Part shown: one piece after another, positions 11,439 to 18,330 of the stretch
How positions within the stretch are numbered: the stretch's first letter is position 1
How the letters are laid out: each line of letters opens with the position of its first letter
Assembly: GCA_012960315.1 (NCBI GenBank)
Contig: DUBN01000078.1
Span: 62,001-126,000 of the forward strand
Length of the DNA stretch: 64,000 bases
Direction of reading: 5' to 3'
From: Acidimicrobiia bacterium
GTDB lineage: Bacteria > Actinomycetota > Acidimicrobiia > Acidimicrobiales > Poriferisodalaceae
Notes under the pieces: generated by a model
What the model was told of the DNA's origin: nothing
The model's input: the letters and a program-made list of their open reading frames with translations, nothing else
Database searches by the model: none
Made by a program: the position numbers and the translations under genes

Positions 11439-12178
11439 CCATCGCAACAGCCCCAATTGATGCCGCAACCGTGGTAGTTGCCAGAGACACGGATAACGGC
11501 GTCGAAGTTCTGATGCTCCGACGTAATTCCAAAATATATTTCGGAGGAATGTGGGTTTTCCCTGGAGGCAGGGTCGACCCAGCCGATCGGGAAGACGAAA
11601 ACCAAGTTTCCGTATGCGACGACAGCAATGGTCGCGGGTTTCTCGCCGCAGCGATTCGCGAAGCGCGAGAGGAAGCCGGAATCGACCTCAGCGATAGTGA
11701 GCTACACCATTTCGCCCACTGGCTTCCTCCTGCTATTCGACCAAAACGATTTTCTACACAGTTTTTTCTCACCACGGCGCCAGCAAATCTCGACGTTGCA
11801 ATCGATCACGGAGAGATCACCGAACACCATTGGATGACACCTGCCGACGCTTTACAGCGACGAGCTATCGGCGAAATCGAGATGGTCACTCCCACTTTTT
11901 GCACTCTCAATTGGCTCGAAAAATTCCCAACCGTATCTGATGCCTGCTCCGCGGTAAAAACCGCGGAGTGCTTCCACACTCACATAAAACAAGTGGACGG
12001 TTCCGATCCAGGCATGATCGCGTTCTATTCAGGAGACGTCTCATATGATTCTCTTGACTTGGAAGCCTCGGGCGCGCGTCGGCGCTGCTACATGCTTCAG
12101 TCAGCCTGGTGGTGGGAAGAACACGACGGCGATGGATCGAATCTCAGCCTTGAAAGGCCTGACATCGTTACGAGTTAA
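11435..12178 (+). CDS. NUDIX hydrolase, NUDT19/CoA-diphosphatase-like
   Basis: 247 residues, GTG start overlapping the previous stop as GTGA. MWVFPGGRVDPAD is followed about 40 residues later by AAIREAREEAGIDL, the R-E-x-x-E-E-x-G core of a Nudix box with a long insertion between the first glycine and the REXXEE, a hallmark of the NUDT19/RP2-like subgroup. These enzymes hydrolyse nucleoside diphosphates linked to other moieties, in some cases acyl-CoA. The long C-terminal extension (YSGDVSYDSLD...) is also typical. It is the last gene of the plus-strand operon and overlaps the convergent nitrile hydratase accessory gene by four bases. Confidence 0.88.
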   Translation: MTIATAPIDAATVVVARDTDNGVEVLMLRRNSKIYFGGMWVFPGGRVDPADREDENQVSVCDDSNGRGFLAAAIREAREEAGIDLSDSELHHFAHWLPPAIRPKRFSTQFFLTTAPANLDVAIDHGEITEHHWMTPADALQRRAIGEIEMVTPTFCTLNWLEKFPTVSDACSAVKTAECFHTHIKQVDGSDPGMIAFYSGDVSYDSLDLEASGARRRCYMLQSAWWWEEHDGDGSNLSLERPDIVTS

Positions 12179-12513
12179 TGATCATGGCCGTGTGGTCGCT
12201 CGGCATAAGCGATGGCGCGCCCATCGAGTTCTGCTTCGTCAAGAAGCGTCAAATCGTTGAGTATTTGCTCGAGAGCCTTTGTCCAGCAGGTGTAGTAGTC
12301 CCATGTCGGTCGATCGATATCATCCGTTGACTCCCAAGCACCAATTGCCGCAATTAACCGCTTTCGGAAGTCTCCCCAACTAAAGCATCCCGATTCGACT
12401 AAGTCGGCTGTTACCCCAAAGGCTCGGCTTTGCCACGGTGCTTCGAAAACCAACTCGCCATTCAGTCTGGGTGGCGCTGTTAGCGAGTCCTCGAGAATCT
12501 CAACTTCAGTCAC
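12175..12513 (-). CDS. Nitrile hydratase accessory protein (activator/metallochaperone)
   Basis: 112 residues. The pattern LNGELVFEAPWQSRAFGVTADLVE, FSWGDFRKRLIAAIGAWE and YYTCWTKALEQIL is that of the small nitrile hydratase accessory protein, itself related to the N-terminal half of the beta subunit. In cobalt-type enzymes the accessory protein loads cobalt into the alpha subunit by subunit swapping. GTG start overlaps the alpha stop as GTGA. The tail is histidine-rich (PHGHDH), compatible with metal handling. It is the distal gene of the beta-alpha-accessory operon. Confidence 0.88.
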   Translation of the reverse strand: MTEVEILEDSLTAPPRLNGELVFEAPWQSRAFGVTADLVESGCFSWGDFRKRLIAAIGAWESTDDIDRPTWDYYTCWTKALEQILNDLTLLDEAELDGRAIAYAERPHGHDH

Positions 12514-13130
12514 GGCTTTTCGGCCCTTGCCACTCCGATCATGGAATCTCTGCTCACCAGGTGCGCTAACTCTTCTAGGTCGAGGTGATCGGTTCCCTCC
12601 GGCTGCTCAGGGAGCACGAGAAAACGGGTTTCTGAACTGCTATCCCAAACTCGTACTTCGGTGTCGGCCTCAAGGCTTAGGCCCATCTCATCAAGAACCT
12701 TTCTAGGTTCTCGCACTACTCTGGCTCGATATTCGGGGCTCTTGTACCAATTTGGTGGCAAACCGAGGAGAGCCCAGGGATAGCAAGAACACAACGTACA
12801 AACCACGACATTGTGGACCCCGGGCTCGTTGGCCTTCACTTCGATATGGTCCATGACTGGTCCAGTCTCCGCGCCTTGAATGTCTTCGGTAGCTAGGACT
12901 TCATCAGCGTCGTCAAGAAGGCGCGTGCGAAATTCGGGGCTGAGCCATGCTTTCGCAACGAGGCGAGCTCCAACCATCGGCCCTAAGTCGTTTTCGAAGC
13001 GCTCGATCAGAGCATCGACACGCGACCGGTCGACGATCCCCTTCTCAACGAGAAGGTCCTCAAGAGCCTCAGTTCGAACCTCGGGTGAGCGAGGGTCGGT
13101 CTCATGGTGGTGATCCATTCCAGAGCTCAC
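12510..13130 (-). CDS. nthA: Nitrile hydratase alpha subunit, cobalt type
   Basis: 206 residues. The metal-binding claw is C111-T-L-C114-S115-C116, followed by YPWALLGLPPNWYKSPEYRARVVREPR, the invariant neighbourhood of the catalytic site. Thr at the second position (CTLCSC) marks the non-corrin cobalt form rather than the iron form (CSLCSC). Two cysteines in this motif are normally oxidised to sulfenate and sulfinate. The enzyme hydrates nitriles to amides in the cytosol. The start is a GTG that overlaps the beta stop (GTGA), giving tightly coupled 1:1 synthesis. Confidence 0.95.
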   Translation of the reverse strand: MSSGMDHHHETDPRSPEVRTEALEDLLVEKGIVDRSRVDALIERFENDLGPMVGARLVAKAWLSPEFRTRLLDDADEVLATEDIQGAETGPVMDHIEVKANEPGVHNVVVCTLCSCYPWALLGLPPNWYKSPEYRARVVREPRKVLDEMGLSLEADTEVRVWDSSSETRFLVLPEQPEGTDHLDLEELAHLVSRDSMIGVARAEKP

Positions 13131-13840
13131 GTCGCCTCCACTACAGCAGTCAGATAGTTCTCGTACAAGTCGACATTAATCACAACACCGGCTTCGGATT
13201 TATTGCCCCAAAGATCTTCAGCCCGGTAACCAACGCAGATCACGTGTTGAGGCCTTTCGCCGAGGTCGTGGGCGGTGCTGTCCGGCAACACCTCCGCTGG
13301 GTGGATCTTGACGACAGTGCCCACCACACCAGCGACGTATTCAGGCAATCGGGTGTGGCCCTCTTGATTCGCTCCAATTGCGACTACGCGATCTCCTACT
13401 CCAAAGTGCGGAGGGTCAACGAGTTCGCGACGCACGGTTCGATGATTTGGTTGGGGGGTTTTTCGATCGGCCGGCAACTTTTGAGGATCTTTCGGCGCTA
13501 CTGGCGAAGCGCGATGGGCTGGACCAGTGCCTTCTTTCGCACCCAATAGGACATCGAGCTCACCTGGGGCGAGAAGCGCATACTCTTCGAGAAGTAATTC
13601 CATCACCGCTTCCCAACGACCGTAATAGCCGCCATGATCGAAATAATCGTCTGGCGCGAGCCGTTCGAGGGCGTATCGCATCTCGCCGGGACGCGTCGCT
13701 GTGTGGCGCAGCACCTGGAACATGAGGCCTAGAACTCGTCGTTCCCATTCGTTGTGAAACGGTGGCTCATCAGGACTGTGAGGTACTTTCCCCCACCCTT
13801 GGGTGCCTCCTATGTCGTGAACACCACGATCTCTGGTCAC
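13127..13840 (-). CDS. nthB: Nitrile hydratase beta subunit
   Basis: 237 residues. It opens with GVHDIGGTQGWGKV, the usual nitrile hydratase beta N-terminus, continues with FHNEWERRVLGLMFQ and YALERLAPDDYFDHGGYYGRW, and ends with the SH3-like barrel (FGVGDRVVA ... GVVINVDLYENYL). Beta subunits form the heterodimer with alpha and complete the active site. GTG start at 13840. Gene order beta-alpha-accessory is that of cobalt enzymes. The operon lies next to an SDR and is convergent with the NUDIX gene. No amidase gene is adjacent, so the amide product must be handled elsewhere. Confidence 0.93.
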   Translation of the reverse strand: MTRDRGVHDIGGTQGWGKVPHSPDEPPFHNEWERRVLGLMFQVLRHTATRPGEMRYALERLAPDDYFDHGGYYGRWEAVMELLLEEYALLAPGELDVLLGAKEGTGPAHRASPVAPKDPQKLPADRKTPQPNHRTVRRELVDPPHFGVGDRVVAIGANQEGHTRLPEYVAGVVGTVVKIHPAEVLPDSTAHDLGERPQHVICVGYRAEDLWGNKSEAGVVINVDLYENYLTAVVEAT

Positions 13841-14677: not shown

Positions 14678-15067
14678 ATGAGCGAATCAACTAGCCCCGA
14701 AGAGGTTGTTAACACCTTCATCGAGAAGATAGAAGCAAGAGATCTCGACGCGGCACTTAGCCTCGTTTCTGACGACTGTTATTACGACAATGTCCCCATC
14801 GGAGATATGACCGGAAAAGAGGACATGCACAAGTTCCTTAGCGGGCTGCTCAAAGGGGAAGGACCAGTGGAGTTCGAGGTCATTCGGCAAACAGCCACCG
14901 GGAACACCGTGATGAATGAGCGAGTCGACCGCTTCACTACGGCGAGCGGACGGACTATCGAATTGCCGCTCATGGGCGTCTTCGAAGTGAACGATGGACA
15001 CATCACTTTTTGGCGCGACTATTTTGACAACGGCATGTTTCTTAAACAAGTAAAGGGCGAGGGCTAA
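14678..15067 (+). CDS. Limonene-1,2-epoxide hydrolase-like / SnoaL-fold protein
   Basis: 129 residues with the cone-shaped NTF2 fold pattern. MNERVDRF and FWRDYFD supply the Arg/Asp and Asp that make the catalytic D-R-D triad of limonene-epoxide hydrolase, and GVFEVNDGHITFWRDYFD is nearly the family signature. Such enzymes add water to an epoxide in one step. The neighbouring SDR, UGSC selenoprotein and MaoC genes suggest breakdown of a cyclic or terpenoid compound (inference). A steroid-isomerase-like role cannot be excluded. Confidence 0.8.
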   Translation: MSESTSPEEVVNTFIEKIEARDLDAALSLVSDDCYYDNVPIGDMTGKEDMHKFLSGLLKGEGPVEFEVIRQTATGNTVMNERVDRFTTASGRTIELPLMGVFEVNDGHITFWRDYFDNGMFLKQVKGEG

Positions 15068-15127: not shown

Positions 15128-15658
15128 ATGAGTATCACTACCGAGTTCCACGACCCTCGAGCAGACGCTCAGGCGGTCGCGGAGCCCTATGAACTAGAAG
15201 TTGACCTAGGAAAACCTCTGACAATTGGTCTCGTTGCAAACGGCTTCCCAGACAGTGTCCGTTTCCTAGATCATGTGGAGAAATCCCTGGGCCAAGTTGT
15301 GCCCACCGCATCTTTCGTCCGTTACGACAAAGGTGACGCGTCATCAGTCGTTAGCGGTCGCATGCTCGAAGAGATCCAAGCAGAATGCCAAGCGGTTGTT
15401 GCTGCTTATGGTCATTGAGGCAGCTGCACTTCTGGCACCGTGCGTGACAGCATTTCAGTAGCTCGCTTGGGTATCCCTGCCGTAGCCCTAGTCACAGAAG
15501 AATTTTGGCCTCAAGGAGATTTTTTCGCTCATTCCACCGGCATGCCCGAGGTACCCCGTATCAAGTTGCCTCACCCAGTCGCTGGTACCGGTGAACAAAA
15601 GATGGCCGAAGTTGCTGCAGATATCACTCCTTCCATCGTCGACTTCTTCACCGGCTGA
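15128..15658 (+). CDS. UGSC-family selenoprotein (in-frame TGA = selenocysteine)
   Basis: 176 residues if TGA 15416-15418 is read as selenocysteine (residue 97). Without recoding it appears as two fragments, 15128-15418 and 15440-15658, in the same frame. The junction reads AYGH-U-GSCTSGTVRDS, exactly the U-G-S-C motif that names the UGSC family, and both sides keep uninterrupted family-like sequence (LGIPAVALVTEEF downstream). U-x-x-C is a thioredoxin-like redox motif, so a redox role is likely; the true substrate is unknown. GGGGGAG precedes the ATG. It is followed 21 bp later by a conserved partner gene. A nonsense mutation is the alternative, but the TGA sits precisely at the active residue. 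Confidence 0.88.
15419..15451 (+). promoter_or_regulatory. Candidate bacterial SECIS hairpin of the UGSC gene
   Basis: Directly after the UGA, GCAC (15426-15429) pairs with GTGC (15440-15443) around a 10-base loop containing GG, and GCT (15423-15425) pairs with AGC (15449-15451) across a bulge. The loop GG lies about 16-17 bases after the UGA, a distance compatible with SelB-binding hairpins. The stem is weaker than in the other two selenoprotein genes here, so this is a tentative call. Confidence 0.4.
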
Positions 15659-15679: not shown

Positions 15680-16768
15680 ATGACTTTGCTCGACGCCCCA
15701 TCTGAACACGACGCGCTCGAAGTTCTGCACCAACTGGGCTGCACCGATGGTCTGCCGGTGGTAATACCCACTACTGACCGGGTGTCTCGAATGGTTTTGG
15801 CTACAGGATTCGAGCCCGACCTTGTATTAGGGGTCATGGGGCCGATGCATGGCTCCGCGACAGTAGAAAAAGTCTGTACCGCAGCCGTCATGGCGGGGTG
15901 CCTACCGGACTACGCCCCGGTAGTCGTTGCAGCAGTCCGCGCCGTTTGCCAACCCGAGTTCGACTTGACCGAAATGCAAGCGACAACTCATTGCACTGCT
16001 CCGTTGGTGATTGTTTGTGGGCCAGCTCGCCACGCGTGTGGCGAAATAGCGTCCGGGTTTGGTGCTCTCGGACCTGGACATCGGGCGAACGCCTCAATTG
16101 GGCGTGCCCTTCGGCTCGCCATGATCAACATTGGAGGTGCCCGCCCGGGTTCCTCCGACATGGCTCTGCACGGGCATCCCGGGAAATTCACTTACTGCGT
16201 CGCTGAGGATGAAGAAAACAGCCCTTTCCCTGGTCTACACACCACTTTTGGCTACGACCCCGAACAAAGTGCCGTGATCGTCACCGGAGCTGAAGCTCCA
16301 CATTCCACTTTCTTCACCGGAGATCGAGACGATCCCGCTTCGGTGGAGAATTTGCTTAACGTAATCGCGCTAGTGATGGCGAACCCGGGAAGCAACAATG
16401 TTCATATTCGAGAAGGCTCCATCACTGTCATGATGAATCCGGATCACACCGACGTGCTCAGTCGGGCGGGTTTGAGCCGTGAAGACGTGCAAGCGGAACT
16501 CGCGAGTCGGGCCGCCATCTCGGTCGGAACGATGAGAAGAATAAGTCCGGACCCGCAGGGTCGGTACGAAGAGTCAGCGGACGATGAACTCATCCATGTA
16601 CTCAAAGATCCGAGCCGCATACTGTTGTTCCAGGCTGGAGGCAGCGGCCTTTACACAATGGTGATGCCATCTTGGTGCGCAGGTCCGCATCGCAACGCAA
16701 TAGTTCACGCTGAAATCGAACTCGACCAAGCCTGTGAAGTGCCTGGAATGAGCGAGTTGCCAAACTAA
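15680..16768 (+). CDS. Conserved protein of unknown function, partner of the UGSC selenoprotein
   Basis: 362 residues, no signal peptide or membrane helix. It contains G-C-T-D-G-L-P-V-V-I-P-T-T near residue 20, a Cys-rich middle (VCTAAVMAGCLPDYAPVVVAAVRAVCQPEF, THCTAPLVIVCGPARHACGEIASGFGALGPGHRAN), and a glycine-rich C-terminal LLFQAGGSGLYTMVMPSW. I recognise it only as a protein that accompanies UGSC domains; no enzyme family can be named. The many cysteines and the 21-bp gap to the selenoprotein suggest that the two act together, perhaps with the U-G-S-C residue reducing or transferring a thiol-bound group (inference). Confidence 0.7.
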   Translation: MTLLDAPSEHDALEVLHQLGCTDGLPVVIPTTDRVSRMVLATGFEPDLVLGVMGPMHGSATVEKVCTAAVMAGCLPDYAPVVVAAVRAVCQPEFDLTEMQATTHCTAPLVIVCGPARHACGEIASGFGALGPGHRANASIGRALRLAMINIGGARPGSSDMALHGHPGKFTYCVAEDEENSPFPGLHTTFGYDPEQSAVIVTGAEAPHSTFFTGDRDDPASVENLLNVIALVMANPGSNNVHIREGSITVMMNPDHTDVLSRAGLSREDVQAELASRAAISVGTMRRISPDPQGRYEESADDELIHVLKDPSRILLFQAGGSGLYTMVMPSWCAGPHRNAIVHAEIELDQACEVPGMSELPN

Positions 16769-16787: not shown

Positions 16788-17261
16788 GTGGCTGAAGATC
16801 GACCCCATGGTGGACTGTGGTTTGAAGAACTGACGCCCGGACTCGTCATTCGGCATCGTCTCCGGCGCACAGTAACTGAGACCGACAACATTATGTTCAC
16901 GACGATGACGATGAATCCGGCCGCGCTGCATCTTGATTTCGACTACGCAGAAAAAGAGACCCAGTTCGGGCAGCCGCTAGTGAATTCGATGTTCACCGCA
17001 GCACTTGTGGTGGGAATTTCGGTTCACGAAACAACGCACGGCACGACAGTCGCCAACCTCGGTTTTGAGCAGATGAACTTTCCTGCTCCGGTGTTTCATG
17101 GCGACACCCTTCGCGTTGAATCTGAGGTAATTAGTGCACGCGAATCTTCCAGCAAGCCAGACCAGGGAATCGTTTTGTTTGAACACCGCTCTCACAACCA
17201 GGACGATGTCTTGGTTGCCACGATGAGACGAAACGCGCTCATGTGGAAACAGCCGAACTGA
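16788..17261 (+). CDS. MaoC-like dehydratase (hot-dog fold)
   Basis: 157 residues, GTG start eight bases after [36 protein letters not shown] carries the D-x4-H hydratase-2 motif layout, followed by [11 protein letters not shown] and [17 protein letters not shown], all standard for MaoC/mesaconyl-CoA-hydratase-like enzymes that add water to enoyl-CoA thioesters. It is the third gene of the run UGSC, partner, MaoC, SDR on the plus strand, and a second MaoC gene lies at 48.5 kb beside another selenoprotein gene. Confidence 0.88.
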
Positions 17262-17364
17262 ACTAACCGGTAGCGCCCAGCCAGAAAATTCTGCCGTACG
17301 GTTCGGAATCGTGCGCCGCACTGACTACCGTCATCGCCACCCCCCCTCTTTTGGAGTCTCCGCG

Positions 17365-18330
17365 ATGGCTTACACCGCGCCTACAGACGCATTCCGCTTC
17401 GATGAATACCGATCTGCGGTGGAAGGCAAACGAGTGTTCATCACTGGCGCGGGTAAGGACGGTGGCATAGGACAGGCTTTCGCACTCTGCGCTGGTCTTA
17501 ATGGAGCTGCGTCAGTCGGCGTTCATTTTCATCGAAGTTATGAGGACGGTTTCGATCTCGTTGACCAGCTACGACTGGAGGGCGTGAACGCCTTCCCCGT
17601 GCAGGCAGATGTAACAAATTTGCGTGATTTGTGGGCGAGTCGCAGCTACGTCATAGACCAGATGGGAGGCCTTCCTCCAAATTTAGTTATCTGCAACTCT
17701 GGGCTAACCGAATCGGGTTACAGCTTCGGACGGGCCCTTCGAGAAAAAGAAGGAGAGGGTCGGGCCCTTCGACGTGCCCGGGTGCGACAGCATTTTTTGG
17801 ACAATCTCGACGAATCCCGTCTTGTCTTAGACACCAAGGTTGACGGCTTCCTTGCATCCACCCATCTGTGGGCCGGGGAGGCCGTTCACCATAATGAACC
17901 GATCCAATTGGTCTACATATCTTCACGTCAGGCAATCGACCCGGGGCCAGCGGTACCGGGGTATGCGATCAGCAATTGGGCGGTTTTACAGTTGCCGAAG
18001 GTGTTGAAAGTAAACCTGGGCAAAAACGCAGATCTAGTCCAATGCTTCTCGCTGATGTTTCCGTTTATCCGCACAGGTATGACCGATGAGTACGCTGACA
18101 ACGAACGGGTCTTCGGGCGTTGGCAGCCTCGGATGCTTGAACCATCTGAGATGGCGGAAGCATTCATGGCGTTGTTGCACCGTCCCGGCGACGAGACCGA
18201 TGACGGAATGTTTGAACTCTTCGTTGAGGCTGCCGAACAAAACGAGATAGATGTCACTTGGCGACAAGTGAAATTCAATCTCGCAGAGGAACAACTCACA
18301 TGGAGTGCCGACCACCCGCTGAAGTTCTAG
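17365..18330 (+). CDS. Atypical SDR with the catalytic Lys missing
   Basis: 321 residues from ATG 17365 (GGAG eight bases upstream); a GTG at 17311 would add 18 residues. TGAGKDGGIGQAF is the dinucleotide-binding motif and ICNSG replaces NNAG. At the active site the sequence is SSRQAIDPGPAVPGYAISN: Ser and Tyr are present but the expected Lys four residues after Tyr is Asn. The length and the LREKEGEG/ALRRARVRQHF insertion around residues 130-155 differ from classical SDRs. It may be a specialised or non-catalytic dehydrogenase; substrate unknown. It is convergent with the SMP-30 gene. Confidence 0.8.
   Translation: MAYTAPTDAFRFDEYRSAVEGKRVFITGAGKDGGIGQAFALCAGLNGAASVGVHFHRSYEDGFDLVDQLRLEGVNAFPVQADVTNLRDLWASRSYVIDQMGGLPPNLVICNSGLTESGYSFGRALREKEGEGRALRRARVRQHFLDNLDESRLVLDTKVDGFLASTHLWAGEAVHHNEPIQLVYISSRQAIDPGPAVPGYAISNWAVLQLPKVLKVNLGKNADLVQCFSLMFPFIRTGMTDEYADNERVFGRWQPRMLEPSEMAEAFMALLHRPGDETDDGMFELFVEAAEQNEIDVTWRQVKFNLAEEQLTWSADHPLKF

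Follow-up and report, generated by a model that had tools for sequence, protein, structure and literature searches.

The window analysed here is a stretch of 64,000 nucleotides from the genome of an Acidimicrobiia bacterium (GenBank assembly GCA_012960315.1, contig DUBN01000078.1). It carries a gene of the UGSC selenoprotein family, followed on the same strand by the gene of a larger protein that we call the partner. The features are listed by their positions in the window.

15128..15658, + strand: gene of a UGSC-family selenoprotein; reading the TGA as Sec gives 176 residues (ORF reading; match to Pfam PF24696 with E 4.3e-43 over residues 8-175)
15416..15418, + strand: TGA, almost certainly the Sec codon, residue U97 of the U-G-S-C motif (column of 65 TGA, 12 TGC and 4 TGT in 81 domains)
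15425..15427, + strand: codon of Cys100 of the same motif, invariant in the 42-row alignment and likely the resolving thiol
15432..15450, + strand: predicted bacterial SECIS hairpin, subfamily variant CUG.G.CAC[CGUGC]GUG.A.CAG with the loop at 15439-15443 (sequence comparison)
15680..16768, + strand: partner protein, 362 residues, family with a D-G-L-P motif, no Pfam or NCBIfam match (next to UGSC almost everywhere; AF2 model with mean pLDDT 91.0)

The ORF 15128-15418 is closed by the TGA at 15416-15418, and the same frame continues past it to the TGA at 15656-15658. The preliminary description had joined the two ORFs across this codon and placed Sec exactly in the U-G-S-C motif; both points are confirmed by the reading of the frame, in which the 176-residue product has U97-G98-S99-C100, the U/C-G-S-C motif looked for in PF24696 members, in the context AYGH-U-GSCTSG. 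When both halves were compared as one protein with the UGSC family, as had been suggested there, a single Pfam profile, PF24696 (UGSC), extended across them (147.8 bits, cut-off 25, profile positions 3-171 of 172). The score for NCBIfam NF041046 was 114.1 bits, and the window protein is not filed under this equivalog because its cut-off is 125. Judged by its sequence, the protein belongs to a subfamily with the motif AYGH-UGSCTSG/TTG and a shifted hairpin.

UGSC is already a catalogued selenoprotein family (PF24696, NF041046). The name 'UGSC-containing protein' comes from the Global Ocean Sampling survey of 2008 (PMC2398784), and the part of that paper available to us counts 255 Sec sequences of UGSC, ranks it among the commonest selenoproteins of aquatic metagenomes, guesses a Trx-like fold and mentions a fused form with an unnamed second domain, 'Unknown_1', which may be the present partner. 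As far as this part goes, the published family and our data agree in the family profile, the UGSC motif and the predominance of the Sec form over the Cys form (PMC2398784). The function of UGSC had been described as not established, and the accessible portions of the literature on UGSC selenoproteins indeed give none; the accessible portions of the literature naming both UGSC and glycine reductase do not state a kinship between them. The window gene adds a divergent-subfamily member to this known family, together with a testable proposal for its function. What is added here is the constant partner, a predicted flavodoxin-like fold, a probable link to GrdB/PrdB, and the context of a CxTC domain and of trxB and trxA.

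The Sec position was followed through a sample of 296 genomes drawn from the class Acidimicrobiia, 106 of which have UGSC. Eighty stretches were fetched, 76 from the list of UGSC genomes (mostly its head, with lower rows added for diversity) and four from the window's own genome. Together with the window they provide 81 domains, in which the Sec column holds 65 TGA and 16 Cys codons (12 TGC and 4 TGT), while TGA is absent from every other column. The Cys expected in relatives at residue 97 is therefore found, and every one of the 81 domains has Sec or Cys there; relatives lacking both had been named as evidence against the selenoprotein. The window gene shares its TGA with relatives of 51-53% identity. 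In the set of named genomes collected by means of the partner, UGSC has Sec in 71 and Cys in 7 of 78 domains. An exception to the Sec/Cys rule comes from outside this clade: a UGSC-partner fusion of Sporomusa termitida in which Met replaces Sec and Ser replaces Cys. The motif UxxCxxC is present in 16 of the 42 rows of the UGSC alignment. We also observed a divergent UGSC-like Sec group with the motifs UGNC, UGAC, UGSC and UGCA (L191:3207-3737, L195:9523-10059, L204:184-432 and L245:12068-12574), which lies together with a divergent copy of the partner in a single frame when the TGA is read through, and which may be a separate subfamily.

The host genome (2.82 Mb in 91 contigs, 96.55% complete) has selA, selB, selC and selD, all with matches above the cut-off, so that the machinery named as a check in the preliminary description is found in full. 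The tRNA-Sec gene (selC, 65.1 bits) is on a different contig from the window, selB and selA adjoin each other on contig 58, and selD is on contig 4 (L253). The latter has one in-frame TGA inside it, and the host selenophosphate synthetase is probably itself a selenoprotein. There are three UGSC genes in this genome in all, each with one TGA. Among the matches listed, tRNA-Sec exceeds the cut-off in 77 of the 84 genomes with a TGA-type UGSC and in 3 of the 11 with the Cys type alone; the seven TGA-type genomes with no such match among those listed are G020, G032, G119, G182, G197, G240 and G252. In Paracoccus ferrooxidans the annotation splits the UGSC frame at its TGA, and selB is located nearby.

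The region 3' of the TGA was compared in 133 Sec and 25 Cys domains that satisfied the conditions of length and place (a few others were dropped), the comparison sets being 119 distinct Sec sequences outside the window subfamily, 10 inside it and 24 Cys sequences. Outside the subfamily, a main hairpin at +16-20/+26-30 from the TGA, of the CGUGC-AGUNU-GCACG type, is complete in 115 of the 119 Sec genes; 98.8% of its cells are paired, the second, third and fifth pairs vary on both sides, and slid versions reach 58.5% of paired cells at most. The corresponding values for the Cys genes are 59.2% of cells paired and a complete hairpin in 1 of 24. None of the 10 sequences of the window subfamily forms the main hairpin. 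All 10 distinct sequences have instead the six pairs of a variant (+16-18,20-22/+28-30,32-34, loop CGUGC), which is complete in none of the 24 Cys genes. The only changed pair of this variant, C-G to U-A on both sides, occurs in the window itself, and the covariation support derived from ten close sequences and one change is modest. A competing helix of five pairs (+9-13/+24-28) is likewise complete in all ten, so that the variant may fold in either way. The folding energy of the window hairpin is no better than that of shuffles (z 0.63 to 1.00) or synonymous draws (z 0.84), the mean synonymous z differs weakly between Sec and Cys genes (p 0.076), and a scan of the window with Rfam gave nothing at gathering level. 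A hairpin just 3' of the TGA, as a SECIS element requires, is thus found by comparison and not by folding energy, and since the latter gives no support, our case for it is built entirely on comparative evidence.

A nonsense mutation or an assembly error in a decaying Cys-type gene would also leave two ORFs in place of one, and a single genome taken by itself would permit such a reading. The TGA recurs, however, in 65 of the 81 domains of the class, and the Sec form makes up 71 of 78 in the named genomes; moreover, the hairpin is specific to Sec genes, the Sec machinery is present and two further host copies carry the TGA. The conservation seen in the alignments already refutes this reading, whose chances are close to nil. 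Because the relatives share the TGA, the TGA is confined to one column and the Sec machinery is encoded in the genome, the codon at 15416-15418 is not a product of chance, and we consider its decoding as Sec practically certain.

With its start at 15680, the partner ORF follows the UGSC stop by 21 bases, and comparison of its sequence with Pfam, NCBIfam and PDB gave nothing convincing. Both genes are present in 103 of the 296 genomes; three have UGSC alone (G103, G154 and G196, two of these matches being weak), two have the partner alone (G092 and G162) and 188 have neither. With the window excluded, the partner lies within 150 bp of UGSC on the same strand in 75 of the 80 fetched domains of the class, in the order partner-UGSC in 63 cases and UGSC-partner, as in the window, in 12. 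The second copies L066 and L075, scored as 'opposite strand', have an adjacent truncated partner at the edge of the locus, and in L070 the partner is located about 3.8 kb upstream of UGSC. The relation also holds in the other direction: when named genomes were scanned for the partner (80 of 576 confirmed loci were kept), a UGSC domain was found in 69 of the 80 loci, in 66 of them within 300 bp of the partner, and at least three of the 11 loci lacking it start at a contig end. These loci span Proteobacteria, Actinomycetota, Chloroflexota, Rokubacteria, haloarchaea and others. The pairing, which the preliminary description had called tight, is far stronger than one neighbourhood could reveal. 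The two proteins very probably form a physical pair, acting as a complex.

Residues of the partner that are invariant in all 39 rows include D23, T61, R142 and E176. The description of this protein as Cys-rich applies to the window copy, which has 10 Cys, and not to the family, in which C74 (90%) and C173 (87%) alone are conserved. A fourth partner copy of the host, on contig 16 (L014 / L107), carries a CPTC domain as a fusion, lacks a neighbouring UGSC gene and sits downstream of a triosephosphate isomerase-like gene. The natural UGSC-partner fusion of Sporomusa termitida (L125:7320-9044) is encoded by the plasmid pSPTER, is followed by an FAD-dependent oxidoreductase and scores above the Pfam cut-off for UGSC. 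A search for DNA-level relatives on plasmids found none.

In the window, a nitrile hydratase cluster lies near UGSC on the - strand at 12175-13840 (alpha TIGR01323, beta TIGR03888 and accessory TIGR03889, all above the cut-off), and the + strand neighbours at 14678-15067 and 16788-18330 encode limonene-epoxide hydrolase/SnoaL-like, MaoC-like and SDR-like proteins. These + strand neighbours are not seen again next to related pairs, save for SDR matches at one locus. The nearest relatives have the motif VAAYGHUGSCTTG or close forms. A conserved wider operon was considered and rejected: in 13 subfamily loci, two of which are probably the same contigs as two others, the two genes alone recur, with the exception of the SDR-family matches in one. 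Since the genes around the pair vary between loci, the unit consists of two genes and no pathway is indicated.

The AF2 model of UGSC, built on the 42-row alignment, has a mean pLDDT of 94.7 and places strands at 31-37, 61-67, 89-95, 118-123 and 144-147 with a helix after each, U97 following the third strand and preceding the helix 98-112. Such a succession of five strand-helix units differs from the thioredoxin topology, and the model, which is not a solved structure, accordingly does not match it; the predicted fold is flavodoxin-like and not thioredoxin-like. The UxxC motif would suit a general thiol peroxidase or disulfide reductase of thioredoxin fold, in line with the suggestion of the 2008 survey, with the partner as its protein client or accessory. 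Besides the five successive units of the model, its structural matches (azoreductases, flavodoxin-like, TIR and CheY/receiver-domain proteins and a chain of the MCR activation complex, none of which stands out) disagree with this reading, and the existence of a single dedicated partner family is more in keeping with a specific substrate than with general thiol chemistry. We regard such an enzyme as improbable.

The matching chain of the MCR activation complex, 8s7v chain H, ranks second among the structural matches (Z 10.8, rmsd 3.0, 130 aligned), and weak MCR_C matches were found in three UGSC members (best 0.0022). These data could be taken to mean that UGSC uses Sec97 and Cys100 to bind a metal or an iron-sulfur cluster and acts as electron donor to the partner, in the manner of McrC/Mmp7 in MCR activation. 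The best MCR_C (PF04609) score, however, is 17.6 against a cut-off of 25, the window protein is not among the three, and many unrelated alpha/beta folds have Z values within 1-2 of the 8s7v row. According to the part of PMC12176620 available to us, the ligands in McrC/Mmp7 are Cys and His spread along the chain, and no such set was traced in UGSC. The likeness is thus one of alpha/beta folds in the model, accompanied by a sequence match below the cut-off and no traced cluster ligands, and we consider cluster binding very unlikely. Comparison of UGSC with PDB by sequence gave no match. For the partner model no fold stands out among solved structures; the weak rows obtained (fumarase and cyclic amide hydrolases, Z at most 5.4) were not used for assignment.

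A different kinship emerged from the profile comparison with selenoproteins of the glycine and D-proline reductases. GRDB-family genes were fetched from the class with their Sec ends taken by coordinates; in the genes among them that were read through, the Pfam match ends at or just before a TGA, and UGT.TR.G or UPxC follows. Alignment of UGSC to 24 GRDB-type sequences by hhalign gave, for this single pair, a probability of 92.6, a score of 50.8 and a P value of 4.6e-7, with U97 falling on the Sec of GrdB/PrdB. The scores of 200 column shuffles did not exceed 21.5, the reversed profile scored 15.2 and the highest score against 25 unrelated control families from neighbouring genes was 30.8; with fewer sequences UGSC scored 39.0 and 34.5. 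PF07355 (GRDB) was not among the families listed (25 of 29) for 42 UGSC members at E up to 5, and comparison of GrdB with PDB by sequence gave nothing convincing. By these alignments, the Sec domain of UGSC is probably a remote homologue of the GrdB/PrdB Sec domain and not a member of that family. As sources of the partner, GrdE/PrdA (score 12.6, probability 0.1) and the N-terminal part of GrdB (no homology) were both rejected. Three GRDB-family (PrdB-like) matches occur in the host genome outside the window (L156, L167 and L170, on contigs 15, 51 and 26); the read-through gene (L142/L170) has a Sec-type UPVC motif, and standard gene calling would cut it at its TGA.

An N-terminal domain with the motif C[PEA]TC (CxTC) precedes the partner domain in 36 of the 79 partners of the class, and in all 35 such cases with a typed UGSC the latter has UxxCxxC. 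By its motif the domain looks thioredoxin-like; in the one copy scanned against Pfam the best match was TraF at 0.0054, below the cut-off. The gene order is trxB-trxA-partner-UGSC in Arthrobacter and partner-UGSC-trxB in Roseovarius; in Variovorax two genes separate the partner from an upstream trxB, and in Candidimonas a TrxB homologue is about 1.4 kb from the pair. As a general neighbour of the pair trxB was rejected, being near 2 of the 80 named loci, one of these distant. The pair could in principle be a non-redox enzyme (a hydrolase, lyase or isomerase) with Sec or Cys as the nucleophile alone and no external reductant, as the weak partner matches to fumarase and cyclic amide hydrolases and the Sporomusa fusion lacking both Sec and Cys might suggest. 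Those matches, however, have Z values of at most 5.4, and the presence of a CxTC domain or trxB next to the UxxC pair argues for redox cycling, which makes this alternative unlikely.

We favour a thioredoxin-driven reductase of two subunits resembling GrdB/PrdB. Directed by the hairpin 15432-15450, SelB and tRNA-Sec would insert Sec at the TGA 15416-15418, yielding a small flavodoxin-like domain, kin to the Sec domain of GrdB/PrdB, whose third helix begins with Sec right after the third strand. This domain would act in one complex with the partner, which, by analogy with glycine and D-proline reductase, may bind a small metabolite. The selenolate of Sec97 would attack the bound metabolite, a leaving group would depart, and a thioredoxin-like donor would then reduce whichever product had formed, a Se-adduct or a Sec97-Cys100 bond. 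Taken as a whole, this reading seems to us somewhat more probable than otherwise; as regards the reductive chemistry and the electron source, the case for and against is evenly balanced. The partner gene, the corrected fold, the link to GrdB/PrdB and the probable thioredoxin donor together make the function testable with purified proteins, and cultured strains of Arthrobacter and Roseovarius, which have the Cys form beside trxB and trxA, are an easy starting point for such work.

According to the part of PMC13188914 available to us, the Sec subunit of glycine and D-proline reductase acts together with further subunits, and in the glycine system thioredoxin is also involved. UGSC and GrdB/PrdB (PF07355) are alike in having Sec at the same aligned place, a UxxC motif and then GIP-like and HP-like motifs. 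They differ in that UGSC has no PF07355 match and that its partner shows no relationship to GrdE/PrdA. The known systems have the latter as their pyruvoyl subunit (PF09338), to which the host genome has no match. Since the partner lacks kinship to GrdE/PrdA, the chemistry of substrate activation must differ from that of the known systems. We tentatively suggest that UGSC and its partner may add a third kind to the Sec-dependent substrate reductases, next to those for glycine/sarcosine/betaine and for D-proline, although the balance tips slightly against it. If so, a GrdB/PrdB-type Sec domain would have been kept with an unrelated substrate-binding protein in place of the pyruvoyl subunit, and the range of such reductases would reach far outside the anaerobic fermenters of amino acids and include a haloarchaeal Cys form.
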